Origin: Planctomycetota bacterium
GTDB lineage: Bacteria; Planctomycetota; Phycisphaerae; Phycisphaerales; Phycisphaeraceae
Direction of reading: 5' to 3'
Length of the DNA stretch: 64,000 nt
Assembly: GCA_021413865.1 (NCBI GenBank)
Contig: JAIOPN010000018.1
Span: 1 to 64,000 of the forward strand
A model generated the notes under the pieces. The model did no database searches, was not told the origin of the DNA, and saw only the letters and a list, made by a program, of their open reading frames with translations. Made by a program: the position numbers and the translations under genes. Positions 1,002-9,807 of this stretch are shown here, piece by piece; within the stretch, counting starts at the first letter, position 1; each line of letters opens with the position of its first letter.

Positions 1002-2384
1002 TCATGTCTGTTGTGCGTAAATGGAGCCCGCGTTGGCGAGCGCTGCGATTGCCTCCCCGTGCAGGTTCGGCATGTCGGGCAGGGCCTCGCGGGCGGCGTC
1101 GACGAAGTCCTTGTCTGAGAGCGACTCGTAGGTGACGGCCTTGAAAGCCGCACTCACCGTGATCTTGCCCAGGTTGTGACCCAGAGGGTGGAAGGCACGA
1201 TCGAGCCGTGACTCCAGGAGGCTCTGGATGTCCTCGGGCTTCGGTGGCGCAGAAGTGAAGGGGCTGCGCCAGGCCTGGGGCGGGTTGGCCAGGACCAGGG
1301 GGAGGAATGCGGCTACGAGCTTGTTGCGCGAAGAGGTCAACTCGTCGGTCACGGATTGACCGACCTTCTCCGAGAACTCTTCGGCTAGTTTCTTGAGGTC
1401 GGCCACCTCTAGCTGGAAGGCCTCCTTGTCGGCGCGTCGAATCACGGCGCCGTAGCCCTTGATGTGCCGGATGTACTTCAGGGAGAGTTCTTGCCGCATC
1501 AAGTCGAACCACCGGGTGCTGACCTTGGTCTCGGTCAGCGGGGTGAAGGAGGTCTTGAGCCGGTCGCGCGTGGCCTTGTCGGCCAAGGGGATCAGCTCGT
1601 CGGGGAGGCGGATGGAACGGCGGTTCAGGTGGAGGCCGGTGATTTCCAGCTCGACGAACTCGAAGAAGGCGTTGAAGACGTTGAGGGTGTGGACGACGTC
1701 GAATTTCCGGGGCGGGTTGTTCTGGAGGTCGGTCTCGACGGCGAGGAGGGTTGCGGGCTGCGCGTTGTCCAGGCCGATGGTGCGGCCCATGGCGCCGTCG
1801 GGACCGGCACCCAGGTCACGCTCGATATCGGCCGGCGCCACACTCAGGCGGATGGCATTGGGTTTAGGCGGAGGCGCTGCCGGCCCGTCGTGCCCAAGAA
1901 AATCCGGATCGGATTGGGTCTTTGCGTTGGAATTACCGCCGCTGCTCCCAGCAGGGGCATTTTCTCCGGGGGCACTACTTCCGGGGGCGGGGGCGCTTCC
2001 GGGGCCGGGGGTGGGGCCGGGGGTGGAGGCTTCGATGAGCTTGGATTGTGGGGCGAAGATGAGGGTCTCTTCGTCGCTGATGATTACGGCGATGCGGACA
2101 CCAGGCTGCGTGCCGACCAGCGAGCCCACGTCACGCGCGGCGTCGTTGAGGTAGGCCATGGATTCAAAGTCCCCAAGCCCAAGCCGGAAGACCTCGGCGT
2201 CCATGTCAAGCACGACGGTGACGGCGTCGGCGCCCATCTCGCGCCAGCGATTGGACAGCACGATGGCGACCGGTGTGCTCAGCGCCGGCGCCAATACGAC
2301 GAGGCGGCGCCGCGCCGAGCGGATCATCTCGATGAGGGTGGCGTCGTCGGCGGTGGTCATGGACTGGGTGGTGGCGTAAGGCAT
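1002..2384 (-). CDS. Protein with PLD-like N-terminal domain, function unknown
   Basis: This encodes a 460-residue protein, last gene of a three-gene operon; its ATG lies 3 nt past the recombinase stop, with a GGGAG site 7 nt upstream. Residues 16-118 look like a phospholipase-D-type alpha/beta domain (RRLVVLAPAL, VTVVLDMDAEVFRLG, AVIISDEETLIFAP), but no catalytic HxKxxxxD motif is visible. Residues 120-156 are a Gly/Pro/Ser/Ala linker made by a GC-rich repeat at DNA level. A C-terminal half of about 300 residues, helical and charged, carries no motif I recognise. There is no signal peptide or membrane segment. Its stop sits at the point where the nitroreductase is cut, so the natural C-terminus may be altered. 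Confidence 0.75.
   Translation of the reverse strand: MPYATTQSMTTADDATLIEMIRSARRRLVVLAPALSTPVAIVLSNRWREMGADAVTVVLDMDAEVFRLGLGDFESMAYLNDAARDVGSLVGTQPGVRIAVIISDEETLIFAPQSKLIEASTPGPTPGPGSAPAPGSSAPGENAPAGSSGGNSNAKTQSDPDFLGHDGPAAPPPKPNAIRLSVAPADIERDLGAGPDGAMGRTIGLDNAQPATLLAVETDLQNNPPRKFDVVHTLNVFNAFFEFVELEITGLHLNRRSIRLPDELIPLADKATRDRLKTSFTPLTETKVSTRWFDLMRQELSLKYIRHIKGYGAVIRRADKEAFQLEVADLKKLAEEFSEKVGQSVTDELTSSRNKLVAAFLPLVLANPPQAWRSPFTSAPPKPEDIQSLLESRLDRAFHPLGHNLGKITVSAAFKAVTYESLSDKDFVDAAREALPDMPNLHGEAIAALANAGSIYAQQT
1957..2035. repeat. GC-rich low-complexity block, copy 1 (inside the PLD-like gene)
   Basis: Repeated TTCCGGGG(G) and GGGGCCGG units run through this stretch, ending in GGAGGCTTCGAT. 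It encodes the Gly/Pro/Ser linker of the PLD-like protein. The same units in similar order occur in the phosphatase gene at 4012-4115. Confidence 0.7.
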
Positions 2385-2387
2385 GGT

Positions 2388-3458
2388 TCAACTCCCGGTG
2401 TGTTTGCGGCGTGAATGTCTGGTTCCTGTGGTTTTGCGTGGAGGGGTCTTGGGGTGTGCCGAGTTTCCGACGGCGCGGGGTTGGTAGGGCAGGTTCTCGA
2501 TGTCGTACCCCTCGATGGCGCGTTCCCGTGCGAGTTGAGCGCAGGTTTCGTCGTTGATCCAACTGGCGTGGCCGGTGAGGGCCTTTACTTGGTCGGGCGT
2601 CTTGCCGGAGTGGATCAGGCTCACCACGTAGGCGCGGCGGACGTCGCGGGTGGTGATGTGGCGTAGCCGCCCCCGGGTGGTGATGCGGTTGAAGATGTCG
2701 TAGACAGCCTGGTCGGTCATGCGTCGGTGGCGGACGATGTCTCCACGCCCGACGGGGAGGAAGAGCGGGCCGGGCTTGGTGCCACGTGCCAGTACCCAAT
2801 CCTTGATGGCCGCGCGCGCCGGGCCGTGCAGAATGACGGTACGAACCTTTTCCGGGGTCTCGCCCCGGATGAGGAGCGCGCCGGCGGAGGGCTTGTAATC
2901 CGCCAGGTCGATCGTGGCGGCCTCTGCGCGGCGCAGCCCGGTGCACAGGAAGACGACCAGCAGGGCCGCGTCACGACGGCCCGAGGCCCCCGGAACCTTG
3001 CCGCACGCATCGAGGAGTTGCTTGACCTGCATGGGCGTGATCGGCGGCGGGGGAGTCGTGGGCTCCTCCGCCGCGCGCGGCGGGATTGGGATGAGGTCCG
3101 TGGTGGCCCCCTGGAAGTGCTTGTTGTCCATCAGGCCCATGCGGTGTGCGACACGCAACACGCCGCGCAGGGCGGAGAGCATCTTGTTGGCCGTCGCGGG
3201 TTTGAACTCCGTCGCCAGTCGCTTGCGGATGACTCCGGTCTCCGCGGCCGTGAGCTTCTCCCACCGGAAGCAGAGCGGGTCGATCTCTTCCCGATCCACT
3301 ACCAGTGCGGCGATGCTAGCGAGCGACTGACGCATCGTCCGCTTGGAACCCTCACCCAGGGAGTCGAGGTACACCGCCGCGGGGGATGGCGTGCGCAGAA
3401 CGGCGTACTCGGTCCGGGACATGTCGATCCAGGCATTGGGTTTGGCATCAACGCTCAT
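2388..3458 (-). CDS. Tyrosine recombinase / integrase family protein
   Basis: This encodes a 356-residue protein. The N-terminal SAM-like (core-binding) region covers about residues 25-125 and the catalytic domain 140-325. Visible active-site positions are Arg176 (GLRRAE), a candidate Lys204, Arg274 (RDVRR), His297 (LTGHAS) and a candidate Tyr318. The first His of the usual HxxR is replaced by Arg271, so activity may be altered. The ATG overlaps the phosphatase stop by 4 nt (ATGA), which indicates translational coupling. It is the middle gene of a minus-strand operon, not next to a tRNA, so it may serve a purpose other than phage-type integration. Confidence 0.8.
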   Translation of the reverse strand: MSVDAKPNAWIDMSRTEYAVLRTPSPAAVYLDSLGEGSKRTMRQSLASIAALVVDREEIDPLCFRWEKLTAAETGVIRKRLATEFKPATANKMLSALRGVLRVAHRMGLMDNKHFQGATTDLIPIPPRAAEEPTTPPPPITPMQVKQLLDACGKVPGASGRRDAALLVVFLCTGLRRAEAATIDLADYKPSAGALLIRGETPEKVRTVILHGPARAAIKDWVLARGTKPGPLFLPVGRGDIVRHRRMTDQAVYDIFNRITTRGRLRHITTRDVRRAYVVSLIHSGKTPDQVKALTGHASWINDETCAQLARERAIEGYDIENLPYQPRAVGNSAHPKTPPRKTTGTRHSRRKHTGS

Positions 3459-4609
3459 CGCCGGCCCCCGCCCCCCGGAAGTGCCCCGGAAGTTCCCACG
3501 GTTCGGCCCCCAGTTTGGTTGAATTCAAGCGGGGTACGCTGGCCGCAGTCGAAGACCAGTTCGCGCTCGGGCCAGCGCAGCGCCGCTAGCCGGCCGATGA
3601 ATGGCCCCGCCGTGTTGCCGGCCTTGCGTTCGCGGAAGCGGTAGCCGACCGAGTAGTCGATGCACACGGCCTTGCCCCCGTTGGGCCCGAGGGTGGCGAA
3701 CTCACCGGCGCCGGCGAAGAGACCGTCGTTGTGCACCGCACCGGGGACCATGGCGCGGGAGTAGTGGCCGAACACGCACATCGGGCCCTCCTCGTACCGG
3801 TCCCACCACCGGCTCCGGGCCTCGTTGCGGAGCTTGCCGGCGATCTCGAACGCTTCGGCGACCCGGTGCTCGGGGCCGGAGGTGATGAACTTGATGGGGT
3901 TCTGGTTCTGACGGATGAGCTTCTGATCGATCGGGTCGCTCACGGCCGCGGCCATGGCCTTGGTGCGCTCGGCGTGCATCCGGTAGACCGCCACGATGTC
4001 GCCCTCGCCACGCCCGGAGGCATCCCCGGAGGCACCCCCGGAGGCATTTCCGGTGGCGGGAGCGCTTCCGGGGCCGGCGGTACTTCCGGGGGCGGGGGGG
4101 CGGAGGGCTTCGATCGCGGCGTCGTCCCAGGCCGCATGCACCACACGCAGGTCCTCACGCTCAAGCGCCAGGGGCAGGGCGCGGAGGATGGTGGTGATCT
4201 CCTCGCGTTCCGCATCGTTGGCGACGGGCTTGGCATCACCCTTGGGAGGTTGATGGCCGAGGATCCAGCCGTTGTCGGCCTTCTGGGACCCGAGCACCAC
4301 GTTCAGGTCGTGGTTCCCCATGACCGCCAGGGCCCGCCCGGCGGAGATCAACCGGTGAATCCAGCGCACGACCGCCACGCTGTCGGGCCCGCGGTCGATG
4401 AGGTCACCCACGAAGACCAGCCGCCGGCCATGAGGGTGATCGCCGTCGGGGTCGTACCCCAGGTGAGCGATCAGGGCATTGAGCGCCTCGAACTCCCCGT
4501 GGACGTCCCCGACGATGTCGAGGGGCCCTTGGGGGAGGGGGCGGACGAGGTCCACGGGGTCAGACGGGCCGAGGAGGGCACGAATCACGGGTTGGACGGC
4601 GGTGGGCAC
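3455..4609 (-). CDS. PPP-type metallophosphatase (calcineurin-like)
   Basis: This encodes a 384-residue protein, first gene of the operon. It carries the metal-binding motifs of the PPP phosphatase family in order: GDVHGEF (34-40), GDLIDRGPDS (68-77) and GNHD (98-101). A later VHAAWDD follows with His158, and FGHYSRAM lies in the C-terminal third. That set fits Ser/Thr phosphatase or ApaH/PrpE-like enzymes; the substrate cannot be told. Residues about 171-202 form a Pro/Gly/Ala/Ser linker that interrupts the domain. The GTG at 4609 was chosen because AAAGGA lies 7 nt upstream and a consensus promoter lies just beyond; the open frame extends further up only by chance. Confidence 0.85.
   Translation of the reverse strand: MPTAVQPVIRALLGPSDPVDLVRPLPQGPLDIVGDVHGEFEALNALIAHLGYDPDGDHPHGRRLVFVGDLIDRGPDSVAVVRWIHRLISAGRALAVMGNHDLNVVLGSQKADNGWILGHQPPKGDAKPVANDAEREEITTILRALPLALEREDLRVVHAAWDDAAIEALRPPAPGSTAGPGSAPATGNASGGASGDASGRGEGDIVAVYRMHAERTKAMAAAVSDPIDQKLIRQNQNPIKFITSGPEHRVAEAFEIAGKLRNEARSRWWDRYEEGPMCVFGHYSRAMVPGAVHNDGLFAGAGEFATLGPNGGKAVCIDYSVGYRFRERKAGNTAGPFIGRLAALRWPERELVFDCGQRTPLEFNQTGGRTVGTSGALPGGGGRR
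4012..4115. repeat. GC-rich low-complexity block, copy 2 (inside the phosphatase gene)
   Basis: The block contains CCCGGAGGCAT triplet-type repeats, then GCGCTTCCGGGGCCGG, TACTTCCGGGGGCGGGG and GGAGGGCTTCGAT. It matches the units of copy 1 at 1957-2035 and likewise encodes a protein linker. Confidence 0.7.
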
Positions 4610-4639
4610 GGCGGTTTCCTTTCTAACATTCTCATAAGT

Positions 4640-4667
4640 ATTATACCGGGAAGCGGCGCCGATACAA
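4640..4667 (-). promoter_or_regulatory. Sigma70-type promoter of the phosphatase-recombinase-PLD-like operon
   Basis: On the minus strand TTGTAT and a perfect TATAAT are separated by 16 bp. The predicted start is near 4633, leaving a leader of about 24 nt before the AAAGGA site and the GTG at 4609. Confidence 0.75.
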
Positions 4668-4756
4668 GGGCCGACGCGTAGGAAATTGGATTTTGGAGTG
4701 ATGACGAAGTCAGAGGTTTTAGCCAACGAGCTTTGCATTTGAGACGACGCTGAGCG

Positions 4757-4766
4757 GTTTGAGCTA
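4757..4766. repeat. Target-site duplication of the ISAs1 element, left copy
   Basis: GTTTGAGCTA directly precedes the element and is repeated exactly at 6034-6043. Confidence 0.9.
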
Positions 4767-6033
4767 CAGGGTAAACGCATATGACTACCCGGCGATCAGG
4801 TGCAGCAGGAAATCGTGGTCCCAGCCGGCGATTTTTCTTCTGCCCCTGATGCTCCTGCGTCGGGTGTGTTTGTCGCCCTGCGTCCGCAGCAGGTTCATCG
4901 CCATACGGCGCAGCCGGCTCATGTTTTCCGCCCCGTGCACTTTGCGGATGCGGCTGTCGTCCTCGCGGAAGCTCACGTCCAGCACGTGATGCAGCCCGTT
5001 CTCGACGCTCCAGTGCCCGCGGATCGCGGCGGCCATCGCCTGGGCGTCGGCGGGCAGCGAGCTGATGAAGTATCGCCGCTCGATGCTTTGGCCCACCCCC
5101 GGAACCTGACGCCTCGACTCGACCACCGCCACGCTGCGCAGCCCCCGCCAGTCGCGACGCTGCGCGAGCCACGATAAATGATCCGTCACCCACACATGCC
5201 GCGTCTCGATGCGGCCATGCCCCGCGTCCACCGATTCATGCTCATCACCCGGCAGATACGCGCCCCGCGTGCGGATCATGTCATCGAGTTCTGCCTTGAT
5301 CGCCCGGTGCAGCGTGGGCTGATTCTCCTTGACCGCCAGCACGTACTCCCCGCCGGATTCACGTATCTTCTCCGCGATGTTCTTCTGCGCCCCGACCGCA
5401 TCGATGGTGACCGTGGCGCCCTTGAGATCGATCAGGCCCAGCATCCCCGCGATGGCGGCCAGTTCCCGGCCCTTGCCCGGGGCCTGAATCTGTGTGAACA
5501 CTTGGCCGTTGTGCTCGACAAAGGCGCTGACCATGTGCGTCATGCCGATCTTGTCCCAGCCTCGTTCGAACGATCGGCGGATGCTCTTGCCGTCAATGGC
5601 CACGAGCCTGCCTTGCGACAATTCGACCACGCCCTGCATCCATTGAAGGAAGCAGCGTTCGAACTCAACGGGGTCGAGCCTGCTGATCACCCGGCGAAAG
5701 GTGTCGGCGCTGGGGACGCCGTGTTGGAGATCAAGGAAGGTGGCAAACCAATCGCGTTTGGCGTCGGCGAAGTCCTCGAAATCATCCCAGCCATCGGCCC
5801 CGCAGAGGGTCGCGCACAGGGCCATGACGAGCAGATCGATGAGCCGATGCCGCACGTTGGCCGCACGGGGATCGGGGAGGTCGGAAAAGAAACGCAGTGG
5901 AACAACATCCGCAGGGCCATCCATGACCAGCTCCAGCAAGGGGTGAGTTGGAGAACCAGTAGACCCGCCACAAGGGGGTTATCTAACAAGGAAAAATGAA
6001 AAAGCGCCAGCAAGGACAAATGCGCCCGCCCTG
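4767..6033 (-). mobile_element. Complete ISAs1-family insertion sequence (1,267 bp)
   Basis: The element is bounded by a 10-bp direct repeat (GTTTGAGCTA) and has imperfect terminal inverted repeats. Left inward is CAGGGTAAACGCATATGAC and right inward is CAGGGCGGGCGCATTTGTC, identical at CAGGG, CGCAT, TG and C. It carries one transposase gene on the minus strand. Size, single transposase and a duplication of about 10 bp fit the ISAs1 family. The duplication is perfect and the reading frame of the target can be restored, which points to a fairly recent insertion. Confidence 0.93.
4785..5924 (-). CDS. ISAs1-family DDE transposase
   Basis: This encodes a 379-residue transposase. Typical ISAs1 features are seen in order: the N-terminal FSDLPDPR, then HRLIDLLVMALCATLCGADGW, the first catalytic Asp region VAIDGKSIRRS, VTIDAVGAQKNIAEKI with the second Asp, EYVLAVKENQ, and a late Glu region around IRGHWSVENGLHHVLDV, with LDVSFREDDSR following. 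The ATG at 5924 has GGAG 6 nt upstream and is preferred over an in-frame TTG at 5939. No frameshift is seen, so the element may still be able to move. It lies inside the zeta-toxin-like pseudogene. Confidence 0.95.
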   Translation of the reverse strand: MDGPADVVPLRFFSDLPDPRAANVRHRLIDLLVMALCATLCGADGWDDFEDFADAKRDWFATFLDLQHGVPSADTFRRVISRLDPVEFERCFLQWMQGVVELSQGRLVAIDGKSIRRSFERGWDKIGMTHMVSAFVEHNGQVFTQIQAPGKGRELAAIAGMLGLIDLKGATVTIDAVGAQKNIAEKIRESGGEYVLAVKENQPTLHRAIKAELDDMIRTRGAYLPGDEHESVDAGHGRIETRHVWVTDHLSWLAQRRDWRGLRSVAVVESRRQVPGVGQSIERRYFISSLPADAQAMAAAIRGHWSVENGLHHVLDVSFREDDSRIRKVHGAENMSRLRRMAMNLLRTQGDKHTRRRSIRGRRKIAGWDHDFLLHLIAG

Positions 6034-6043
6034 GTTTGAGCTA
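6034..6043. repeat. Target-site duplication of the ISAs1 element, right copy
   Basis: This is an exact copy of GTTTGAGCTA, immediately after the element end ...GCCCGCCCTG. Confidence 0.9.
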
Positions 6044-6307
6044 CGCCCGGCACATCCCGCGCTGGCGGAAGGCGGGGTATCACGTCAAACTGGTTTTCCT
6101 CGGCCTGCCCTCGGCGGACCTTGCGGCGGCGCGGGTGAAAGCCAGGGTGGCTCAAGGAGGGCATGGTGTGCCCGAAAAGGTGGTTCGACGGCGATTCGAT
6201 GCCGGATTGCGGAACTTCAACAACGTGTACCGCGCGCTGGTCAACAGTTGGGCCTGGTATGACAACTCCGGGCCGGCGCCGCGGCTGATCGACGCAGGAG
6301 ACAACCT

Positions 6308-6493
6308 ATGAGCCCAAAGAACATGCGATCGACGGACCCTGATATCCGAGCTTCGCTGCCGGCCCTGCGGCGCGCGGCCCAGGCGGCGCGGAAGCTGGCC
6401 AAAGCGACCGGAACGCCGGTGTACGTGATGAAAAAAGGACGGGTGGTCGATCTGAACGCGGGACGCGGTAAACAACGCAGGAAGACGGCATGA
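6308..6493 (+). CDS. Small basic protein downstream of the zeta-toxin-like gene
   Basis: This 61-residue, strongly basic protein has an ATG (6308) overlapping the end of the upstream gene by 4 nt, indicating an operon. A helical Ala/Arg/Lys-rich middle is followed by a short strand (GTPVYVMKKGRVV). Small proteins of this shape often sit beside zeta-toxin-like kinases and are thought to be the antitoxin or partner. That is inference from position; no DNA-binding fold can be assigned with confidence. It is intact although its partner is broken. Confidence 0.6.
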   Translation: MSPKNMRSTDPDIRASLPALRRAAQAARKLAKATGTPVYVMKKGRVVDLNAGRGKQRRKTA

Positions 6494-7502: not shown

Positions 7503-8204
7503 TCATGAACCGAATAATCCGCGATCGTTGTCGCCGGCGGATTCAATCTCAATGCACGCGGCATCATCGAACGCCGGGCTGTTTACTCGGGTGCTGACGG
7601 GATGGGCTTCGAGTCGATCATCGGCCAGTGGCATGAGCAGCCGCTCCAGCGTCGCGCGCGGCGTCGCCGGGTCCAGCCAGTCGTCGACGTCCGCCGTTTC
7701 TATGATCGCCGGCATACGGTCGTGGATCGGGCGCATTACCGCATTGGGCTCGGTGGTGATGATGACGCACGTTTCCAGCGCGTCCTCCCCATCGCTCACC
7801 CAGCGCTCCCACAAGCCGGCCAGAGCCATCGGTTCGCCGTCACGGCGCCGGATGAGCATCGGCTGCTTGTGCCTCGCGTCAATTTTGGCCCACTCGTAAA
7901 AGCCGTCGGCCGGGATCAGGCAGCGCCGCGCGTTGAACGCCTCGCGGAACGCCGGCTTGTCCGCCACGGTCTCCGCCTTGGCGTTGATCATCCTGTTGCC
8001 GATGGCCGGGTCGTCCGCCCAGCTTGGCACCAGTCCCCACCTGAGCATCGCAGCCTCGCGCCGTCCGTCACGTTGCCGCACCGCGAGGATCGGCTGGCTG
8101 GGCGCGATGTTGTAACGCGGCATAAAGAACGTGGGGTCGATCGCCAACTTGAAGGCATTGGCGATGCGTCTGGCCGTGGAATGGAGGGTGTAGCGGCCGC
8201 ACAT
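7503..8204 (-). CDS. yedK: SOS response-associated peptidase (SRAP, HMCES/YedK family)
   Basis: This encodes a 233-residue protein starting MCGRY, whose Cys2 becomes the N-terminal nucleophile that crosslinks to abasic sites in single-stranded DNA. Other family motifs are present: PRYNIAPSQP, RWGLVPSWA, NAKAETV, RRCLIPADGFYEW (containing the conserved Glu) and HDRMPAII. Length is normal. It is transcribed divergently from the Y-family polymerase gene 77 bp away, a pairing that suits a DNA-damage response module. Confidence 0.93.
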   Translation of the reverse strand: MCGRYTLHSTARRIANAFKLAIDPTFFMPRYNIAPSQPILAVRQRDGRREAAMLRWGLVPSWADDPAIGNRMINAKAETVADKPAFREAFNARRCLIPADGFYEWAKIDARHKQPMLIRRRDGEPMALAGLWERWVSDGEDALETCVIITTEPNAVMRPIHDRMPAIIETADVDDWLDPATPRATLERLLMPLADDRLEAHPVSTRVNSPAFDDAACIEIESAGDNDRGLFGS

Positions 8205-8224
8205 ACGGGCATTTTATCCCGGTC

Positions 8225-8253
8225 TTGAACTGCTGATGATTGTACGGTATATG
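8225..8253 (+). promoter_or_regulatory. Sigma70-type promoter of the Y-family polymerase gene
   Basis: TTGAAC (8225-8230) and TATATG (8248-8253) are spaced by 17 bp, and an AGGGG site lies 6 nt before the ATG at 8282. I looked for a LexA operator here and found no convincing one. Confidence 0.55.
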
Positions 8254-8281
8254 TTAGGGTTCATCAGGGTAGGGGTTTACG

Positions 8282-9034
8282 ATGCTGCGTTACCTGTTTG
8301 CCGACATGAACTCCTTCTTCGCATCGGTCGAGCAGCAGGAAACAGGCCTGTCCGGCCCTCTGGCCGTGGTGCCGATGGCCGGCGTGGAGACCACCTGCGT
8401 CATCGCGGCCAGCTACGAGGCGAAGGCCTACGGGGTGGGCACCGGCACCGCCGTTCACGAGGCGAAGAAGCTCTGCCCCGGTCTAAGGCTCATCGAAGCC
8501 CGGCCGGACTTGTACGTCCGCTATCACCACCGCATCGTCGAAGCGCTCGAATCGTGCCTCCACGTCGATCACGTCACCAGCATCGACGAAATGTACGGCC
8601 GGCTGATGGGCACGGAATGCCAGCCGCAGAATGCCGCCGTACTGGCCTACAAGGTCAAGGCCGCGATCCGCCAAGCGGTCGGGACGCGGATCAGGTGCAA
8701 CATCGGGATGGCCCCGAACGCCTGGCTTGCGAAGGTGGCGAGCGACATGAACAAGCCCGACGGGCTGACCATGATCATGGCTGACCAGATGCCCGAGGCG
8801 CTCTACCGGCTCAAGCTGACGGACCTGCCGGGCATCGCGTCGGGGATGGCGCACCGGCTCGCCAAGTTCGACATCTTTCATGTCTTCCAGCTCTGCGCCC
8901 TGAGCGAGCATCAGCTTTCCGTCGCCTGGGGTTCCAAGATCATGGGCGCTCTCTGGTTTGCCCAGCTCCGCGGCTGTGACCTGCCGTACCGGCCGACGCA
9001 GCGGAGCATGGTCGGTCACTCCCACGTCTTGGCT
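8282..9034 (+). pseudogene. Y-family DNA polymerase (DinB-like), 3'-truncated
   Basis: About 250 codons are homologous. Catalytic carboxylates are present in FADMNSFFASVE and TSIDEMYG, and the finger, palm and thumb parts (KAYGV, NIGMAPNAWLAKVAS, LPGIASGMAHRL) are recognisable. Homology ends at VGHSHVL near 9034; the little-finger DNA-binding domain is missing, and the open frame continues to 9112 only through unrelated sequence. Family members are usually 350-420 residues long. The product would keep a catalytic core but bind primer-template poorly. The junction joins it to a fragment of a different gene. Confidence 0.8.
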
Positions 9035-9807
9035 CGCCTGGCAGCTTGGACCCAAGGCGTACAAAGTGGTTCAGAAGCACGACCAGGACCGCGTATCGCC
9101 CCAGGGCGATGAGATTAAGGCCATGCTGGCGGCGGCGGGTATCGCCGGACCGGAGAGCGCGGCGGCGCCACCAAGCCGCCAGTGAGCCAGCCCAACGTTT
9201 CATCGAACTCCTCACGAGCGCCCTGTCGAGCGGGCATGCCCATTTGGCTGACAGGGAGGGAAACGCCCCGATCAATGCGGGGGCGTGGGGTTGGAGACGG
9301 ACGAATACAAGTGCCATTGAGGGGTGGCAGGCTCAGGGCGATCGCATCGGCTGGATAGTCGACGACGAGGTTTACTTGGACTCCGATGCCTCTTACCGCG
9401 TTGCAAACATGATGGCCGGCCATGGTGACGGGTTGGCCATTGGTGCCCGGACGCTGCGAAAGCGGCTGCAAGAGAAGGGCTTGATCATCCACGAGGGTAA
9501 GAAAGACACGTTGACGGTGCGCCGTGTGTTGGAAGGCCAGCTCCGCGGAGTACTTCGCCTGGCCAGTGGGGTCCTCTACCAGCAAACTGACATTTCTGAC
9601 ATTCCTGACACAAACAGCGCGATTGCCGGCAACGAAACCGAGGATGAGATTCATTCAACAGACGGACCCACGTCGTCGTCCCCACCCATGAGCCCGGTGT
9701 CAGCTGGCGATGGGAGAAATGTCAGAAATGTCAGAAAAGGCGGAGACCTACCCTCGGCCGCCGCGCCGCTTCAGGCCCAGGTGCGGAAGGCGGTGATGGA
9801 GGTATGA
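9035..9807 (+). pseudogene. Fragment of a mobile-element (replication-type?) protein, frameshifted
   Basis: Two overlapping frames carry protein-like sequence. The first (9035-9185) reads LGPKAYKVVQKHDQDRV and ends at a TGA. The second (about 9186-9807) reads PAQRFIELLTSAL, RIGWIVDDEVYLDSDASY, GARTLRKRLQEKGLI and RRVLEGQLRGVLRL. The second part resembles the C-terminal domain often found on plasmid- or phage-type primase/helicase proteins of integrated elements (inference from memory of such proteins). The N-terminus is lost at the polymerase junction and one frameshift lies near 9180. Its end overlaps the next gene by 4 nt (ATGA), so it belongs to the integrase-bearing element. Confidence 0.55.

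Follow-up and report, generated by a model that had tools for sequence, protein, structure and literature searches.

What could a bacterium gain from an operon that joins a PPP-family phosphatase, a tyrosine-recombinase homologue and a phospholipase D (PLD)-fold protein, and why should a recombinase belong to it? The question is raised by a locus of a Planctomycetota bacterium of the Phycisphaeraceae (GenBank assembly GCA_021413865.1), found in the 64,000-nucleotide stretch analysed here (contig JAIOPN010000018.1, positions 1 to 64,000), hereafter the window. The three genes most likely constitute a small accessory operon that serves as an antiviral defence module and is regulated by its own recombinase-derived repressor, an explanation to which we give somewhat better than even chances from sequence comparison. 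What is new is the three-gene combination, for which we infer a function; each fold on its own is already known.

The genes are transcribed from the minus strand in the order phosphatase, recombinase homologue, 460-residue PLD-fold protein (Table 1). The phosphatase stop overlaps the recombinase start in an ATGA at 3455-3458, and a gap of 3 nt (2385-2387) precedes the third gene, as a preliminary description of this DNA had noted. The phosphatase probably starts at 4609, with GTG, rather than at 4780. The single consensus promoter of that description holds in part, with a perfect -10 box (TATAAT) and a weak -35 box (TTGTAT), and a consensus promoter scan listed nothing at 4640-4667.

This genome contains another full copy, located on contig C38, with no blastn match between the flanks of the two copies, and, on contig C54, a piece of the third gene. 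At L004:10749-14246, a gene resembling serine recombinases and two ParB-like genes, all recognised by eye, come after the second copy. Complete sets in the order phosphatase, recombinase, PLD protein are present in the window, on C38 and in the genomes G494, G528 and G580; G027 has a complete set in the order recombinase, PLD protein, phosphatase, and G724 carries recombinase and PLD genes at a contig edge. The proteins of these other cassettes are about 33-50% identical to the window set. The conserved cassette that had been suspected is thus found complete in four further genomes, apparently at different sites, and the idea survives the search for its three families elsewhere. The surroundings appear to differ from one cassette to another, with, for instance, fusA/cmk/plsC-like genes, named from the starts of their open reading frames (ORFs), at G494.

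In an order-level search of 400 Phycisphaerales genomes, the PLD family was found in 12 and a degenerate branch of the recombinase in 9 (17 genomes had recombinase matches, the other 8 being intact relatives), and 6 genomes have both, side by side. The hypergeometric probability of this co-occurrence, 1.4e-8, assumes identical 400 genomes in both searches and ignores relatedness. One member of the branch, G524, was placed there by its best tblastn match and is not in the tree. Seven weak partial matches were dropped: G192, G229, G244, G299, G302 and G389, which the phylum-set profile search did not recover, and G008, which the order-level one did not. L040/G225, L041/G168, L043/G027 and L045/G410 were counted once each, as were L037 and L038, which have the same protein. 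The frames of the cassette genes are open in both the window and C38 copies, and the ratio of nonsynonymous to synonymous substitution rates (dN/dS) between them is 0.145 for the phosphatase, 0.22 for the recombinase and 0.32 for the PLD protein, all point estimates with no test. That the three genes form an operon unit and travel together is about certain.

The recombinase homologue departs from its relatives at the active site. An alignment of 28 proteins (nine members of the branch, nine close relatives and ten Xer-like recombinases) places Arg at the His of the HxxR motif in all nine branch members and, as far as the alignment can be relied on, shows the catalytic beta-hairpin Lys missing in all nine and present in the 19 others, which keep Arg, Lys, His, Arg, His and Tyr throughout. 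The window protein retains Arg I and Arg II, while its nucleophilic Tyr is Cys, as in the C38 copy. The replacement of His by Arg had been recognised earlier, but the larger loss, that of the catalytic Lys and of Tyr, had been overlooked. The degenerate branch is a single clade (support 98/96). As the change from Tyr to Cys is common to both copies, the loss most simply predates their split, and the dN/dS of this gene would then report selection on a protein already without its nucleophile; over the catalytic domain the ratio is 0.126, again a point estimate with no test. We therefore regard it as quite likely that the homologue is a non-recombining regulator, and probably the repressor of its own operon. 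There is a precedent for such a protein. MrpR, the master repressor of prophage SPbeta, is a DNA-binding protein that has a recombinase fold, no recombinase activity and a DNA element of its own (PMC10516654), and the window protein likewise combines a tyrosine-recombinase fold with lost catalytic residues. In contrast to the cassette protein, which has lost Lys and His, MrpR retains Lys and Tyr and has lost other residues; it is also phage-borne (PMC10516654), whereas the cassette recombinase shares an operon with a phosphatase and its DNA binding is predicted.

A candidate for the corresponding DNA element lies in the promoter. Every intact phosphatase-recombinase operon with a sequenced promoter, seven in number (the window, C38, G494, G528, G580, G622 and G027), has the 11-mer CTTATGAGAAT, without variation, in its core promoter, upstream of whichever gene comes first. 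It falls between or over the apparent -35/-10 boxes in the last five and after the -10 box in the window; a single mismatch separates the G006 version from it, and two separate that of the decayed G524 operon. Among 16 whole genomes there were eight exact matches, six of them at the cassettes of five genomes with complete sets, in which the 11-mer was found at cassettes only, and two outside cassettes, in G006 and G068. The reversed pattern, used as a control, matched once. G724, whose promoter lies beyond the contig, has no exact match, and eight loci of intact relatives show 3-6 mismatches within 250 nt of the recombinase start.

In G647 and G637, which belong to one genus and have an intact recombinase, CGTATGAGAAT occurs upstream of the operon's first gene as an arm of the six-base-spaced inverted repeat TATGAGAA-N6-TTCTCA. 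Perfect 6-N6-6 inverted repeats are common (13% of shuffles) and were counted only if their arms equalled the half-site. None of the other independent loci among the 156 has TATGAGAA-N6-TTCTCA; a repeat resembling it, AGAA-N6-TTCT, is present in G465. Inverted repeats with a six-base spacer are a usual shape of tyrosine-recombinase core sites. Given this shape, the 11-mer resembles one half-site kept as an operator, and it looks like a single recombinase-type half-site retained as a candidate operator. The repeat was noted upstream at L146:6128-6149 and L147:9860-9881, where intact recombinase relatives stand, by eye, behind an AAA clamp-loader-like gene.

The third protein has no family in Pfam at E 1 and only two chance-level rows in NCBIfam (E 0.058 and 0.26), so it is a member of no known housekeeping family in either library, a point on which the cassette proposal had been made to depend. 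PHROGs gave no match for the window protein, phage records none for two queries of the family, and a PDB sequence search with the family alignment reached E 0.12 at best. The PLD-like fold proposed at first reading is backed by a predicted model, in which residues about 3-210 adopt it, with a pLDDT of about 88 over residues 11-110 and below 50 in a low-complexity linker (about 120-171) that is followed by a helical C-terminal part. Among Foldseek's own candidates (best Foldseek E 1.4e-3), from which the Z scores were computed, the top match was TrmBL2 (Z 11.1, root-mean-square deviation 3.2, 126 aligned), ahead of Nuc (Z 10.6, deviation 3.5, 133 aligned) and SauUSI (Z 10.4). Predicted alone, the C-terminal part had a mean pLDDT of 70.5, a best Foldseek E of 0.27 and a best Z of 4.9, values that do not establish a new fold. 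The predicted fold is thus that of nucleases and sensors of the PLD superfamily (Nuc, NucT, BfiI, SauUSI; TrmBL2/TrmB), but, unlike these, the family has no HKD motif, which all 22 relatives lack. At the position where spacing would put HxK(x4)D stands R-x-G/A-x4-D (E in one), in the window R97-x-A-x4-D104; D60, R67, G69, G71, G95, P112 and E118 are further invariant residues of this 22-row alignment, whose G462 row runs six residues past its stop. The protein is therefore probably not a PLD nuclease. On the PLD tree the cassette label needs two changes, and a single origin of the cassette PLD proteins is not shown.

Relatives of this protein outside the cassette stand near recognised defence genes at 14 of 20 loci (Table 1), where recognition by hidden Markov models indicates similarity and is not proof of function. 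The defence-type association proposed for the whole set accordingly holds for the 460-residue family alone. BREX and type I restriction loci carry relatives of the PLD-fold family, as the cassette does; unlike them, the cassette has no methyltransferase, helicase or nuclease core genes, and those of BREX (PglX, PglZ, BrxC), type I restriction-modification (RM; HsdRMS) and DISARM (DrmA/B) are not among its three genes. A family search of cassette neighbours, covering the window as far as 6.3 kb as well as G027, identified a type I R-subunit fragment adjoining the latter cassette. It is the other genomic addresses of the PLD family, together with the rarity and scatter of the cassette, that suggest a role in defence, which we hold to be slightly more probable than improbable.

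The phosphatase, by contrast with its two partners, appears catalytically intact. The PPP motifs GDVHG, GDLIDRG and GNHD are present in the window protein, and the motif set is found in all six aligned members. The nearest NCBIfam models are all far below their cut-offs (Pnkp 87.8/750 bits, ApaH 67.2/176, PrpE 62.5/340), and the nearest structures are 4j6o and diadenosine-tetraphosphatases. The enzyme therefore shares the metal-binding motifs of ApaH, PrpE and Pnkp, but misses their curated scores widely and has different genomic partners. It could be the output of the operon, although we rate this at a little under even chances. In the phosphatase and PLD genes of the window, a short motif, RCTTCCGGGG, forms microrepeats (1977-2004, 3473-3493 and 4064-4091) that encode Gly/Pro/Ser-rich linkers, which are missing from the aligned cassettes of other genomes; its six occurrences in the window (0.57 expected) all lie within the cassette.

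In the mechanism that we propose, the degenerate recombinase would bind the CTTATGAGAAT half-site in the core promoter and repress the operon. The PLD-fold protein, without catalytic His and Lys, would be a sensor or scaffold, perhaps likewise beside BREX, restriction and DISARM-like enzymes, and the intact phosphatase would provide the catalytic output or a switch, with a nucleotide, an RNA end or a phosphoprotein as its substrate. Regulators of adjacent defence operons are familiar: BrxR and CapW reportedly play this part as WYL proteins, the cassette regulator being recombinase-derived instead. RptR likewise controls an adjacent immune operon (PMC12255303). A precedent for the pairing of enzyme and repressor is CapK/CapS, a pair of this kind at immune operons, in which a phospho-switch enzyme accompanies the repressor (PMC13373217); CapS is STAS-like, whereas the cassette regulator is recombinase-derived and the enzyme is a phosphatase. 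The cassette was in none of the libraries searched. Judged by titles and the beginnings of abstracts, with subscription journals mostly outside the search, no description of the operon or the PLD family was found, nor is the PLD protein mentioned in the available parts of two surveys (PMC12839542, PMC12458937).

Several observations weigh against this explanation. None of the three cassette proteins of the window matches anything in PADLOC (E 1), the neighbourhoods of C38, G494, G528 and G580, judged from their ORF starts alone, reveal no defence gene, and the remainder of the window resembles housekeeping (beyond 9 kb by ORF starts). The proportion of PLD-family loci near defence genes stands without a control for the closeness of any gene to PADLOC-type matches, and the 20 loci include near-copies (G634, G554 twice and G526; G462 and G496; L036 and L039). 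As for the regulator, the other seven of the nine branch members keep the nucleophilic Tyr, so the loss of recombination is not proved for those seven, and the tree program warns of long branches, G724 and G027 among them. The promoter element also occurs outside the degenerate branch, as G647 and G637 have its one-mismatch form, and six of nine intact-sister loci lack such an inverted repeat. Finally, the PLD protein is missing beside phosphatase and recombinase in G622, and in G006 the recombinase stands without either partner; the three genes are therefore not obligate partners, and in this branch the recombinase is constant, the phosphatase usual and the third gene variable. The third slot of the operon thus looks variable. 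After phosphatase and recombinase, in the place of the PLD protein, G622 has a 168-residue ORF (L145:8263-8769) that overlaps the recombinase stop, and in G006 a 152-residue ORF (L080:4385-4843) follows the lone recombinase and overlaps its stop codon; Pfam gave no match for either.

The preliminary description considered a mobile or defence-type module whose recombinase acts locally on DNA, and one alternative is accordingly a mobile element moved by an active recombinase. The two copies in this genome, the unlike surroundings of the cassettes, the retention of both catalytic Arg and that of Tyr in most of the branch would all suit such an element, but a branch devoid of Lys and His, whose window and C38 copies have also lost Tyr, is ill equipped to act on DNA as a recombinase. 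Flank repeats at six cassettes do not exceed 11 nt, while direct-repeat shuffles reached 12-15 (for inverted repeats there was no shuffle control), the shared DNA element lies in the promoter and not at the ends, and the same genes come in two orders. Mobility of this kind is therefore improbable. In an empty-site comparison, the G528 flank had lost synteny in G622 and G496. The 11-mer might instead belong to a host regulator or be a feature of the promoter, whose -35/-10 region it overlaps. This, too, we think improbable: it is confined to cassettes in those five genomes with complete sets that were searched, it recurs at G622 and, with one mismatch, at G006, both without the PLD protein, and its half-site forms a six-base-spaced inverted repeat in one genus with an intact sister recombinase.

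Another possibility is that the operon serves nucleotide or RNA-end metabolism, removing diadenosine polyphosphates or 2',3'-phosphates, and has no part in defence. Both the profile models and the structures nearest to the phosphatase point in this direction, yet every curated cut-off is missed by far, the set or a contig-edge part of it occurs in only 6 of the 400 genomes, and restriction and BREX genes are repeatedly found close to members of the PLD family; a metabolic unit is thus unlikely, if a little less so than the two preceding alternatives. The PLD-family fragment on C54, the decayed G524 operon and a truncated neighbour gene in the window could also mark the genes as decaying passengers of a transposed fragment without function. 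Such decay is hard to reconcile with open frames in both copies, with dN/dS of 0.15-0.32 for the three genes and with a promoter element preserved letter for letter, and we consider it very improbable. The antiviral operon under a recombinase-derived repressor remains the explanation that we prefer.

The immediate flanks of the cassette qualify the earlier account of the locus. The cassette indeed borders on an N-terminal half of a nitroreductase gene, whose other half was searched for in this assembly and not found, so that an interrupted gene is indistinguishable from a truncated one. The broken zeta-toxin gene said to adjoin the cassette on the other side is separated from it by a transposase, which we take to be ISAs1-like and for which no inverted ends of at least 12 nt were found within 4600-6100, and its match to Zeta_toxin is below the cut-off. 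Divergent SRAP-like and DinB-like genes, recognised by eye, lie near the cassette at 7503-9112.

Table 1. Cassette and flanking features of the window, and loci of PLD-family relatives outside the cassette
Feature	Location	Strand	Basis or neighbours
PPP-family phosphatase, first gene	3455-4609	minus	Metallophos E 2.5e-11 (Pfam)
Tyrosine-recombinase homologue, second gene	2388-3458	minus	Phage_integrase E 3.3e-15 (Pfam)
460-residue PLD-fold protein without HKD, third gene	1002-2384	minus	predicted model and fold matches
Candidate operator, 11-mer CTTATGAGAAT	4628-4638	minus	just 3' of -10 box
Promoter	4640-4667	minus	TATAAT 4640-4645, TTGTAT 4662-4667, 16-nt spacer, from sequence
Segment common to window and C38 copy	1036-4693	minus	blastn, 86% identical
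Flank: nitroreductase N-terminal half, ends at cassette edge	793-1020	plus	Nitroreductase profile 1-62 of 167, E 4.7e-19
Flank: transposase	4785-5939	minus	DDE_Tnp_1_assoc E 4.3e-33, DDE_Tnp_1 E 2.8e-17
Zeta-toxin-like fragment	6036-6311		Zeta_toxin E 0.013, below cut-off
Distant PLD relative, Acinetobacter towneri plasmid, annotated hypothetical	L030:7482-8738		between BREX pglX and pglZ
PLD relative	G462, G496		between hsdS and hsdR (type I RM); G496 by matching ORF starts
PLD relative	G225		HmaA/HmaB-like
PLD relative	G410		DrmD and type III RM
PLD relative, gene with internal stop	G068		type IIG, HKD-SNF2, McrB-like
PLD relatives	G526, G634, G554 (twice)		DrmMI-like methylase and DruE-like helicase; G554 by matching ORF starts
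PLD relative, viral contig	L039		HmaB-like gene
PLD relative, viral contig	L036		PLD-helicase-like gene
PLD relative, viral contig	L037		type IIG and AriA/mad3-like pair
PLD relative, Nitrospiraceae bin	L042		Mrr and helicase-nuclease genes within few kb
Other six of the 20 loci	G168, Caballeronia, L044, L046, L047, G634 fragment		Caballeronia: 66-residue McrC annotation nearby

Taken at its fullest, the proposal is that of an immune operon of a new class. A recombinase turned repressor would act at a half-site operator, a PLD pseudo-enzyme would be an infection sensor that BREX, type I restriction, Hma-like and DISARM-like systems share interchangeably, and the PPP phosphatase would be the effector; in this complete form it is a tentative idea, more doubtful than the defence role itself. 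If true, it would show a route from a site-specific recombinase to the regulator of a defence cassette, with a half-site frozen as operator, and would bring to light a PLD-fold family, as yet without a name, that connects five or more kinds of defence locus, namely BREX, type I, type IIG and type III restriction, Hma-like and DISARM/Druantia-like loci.

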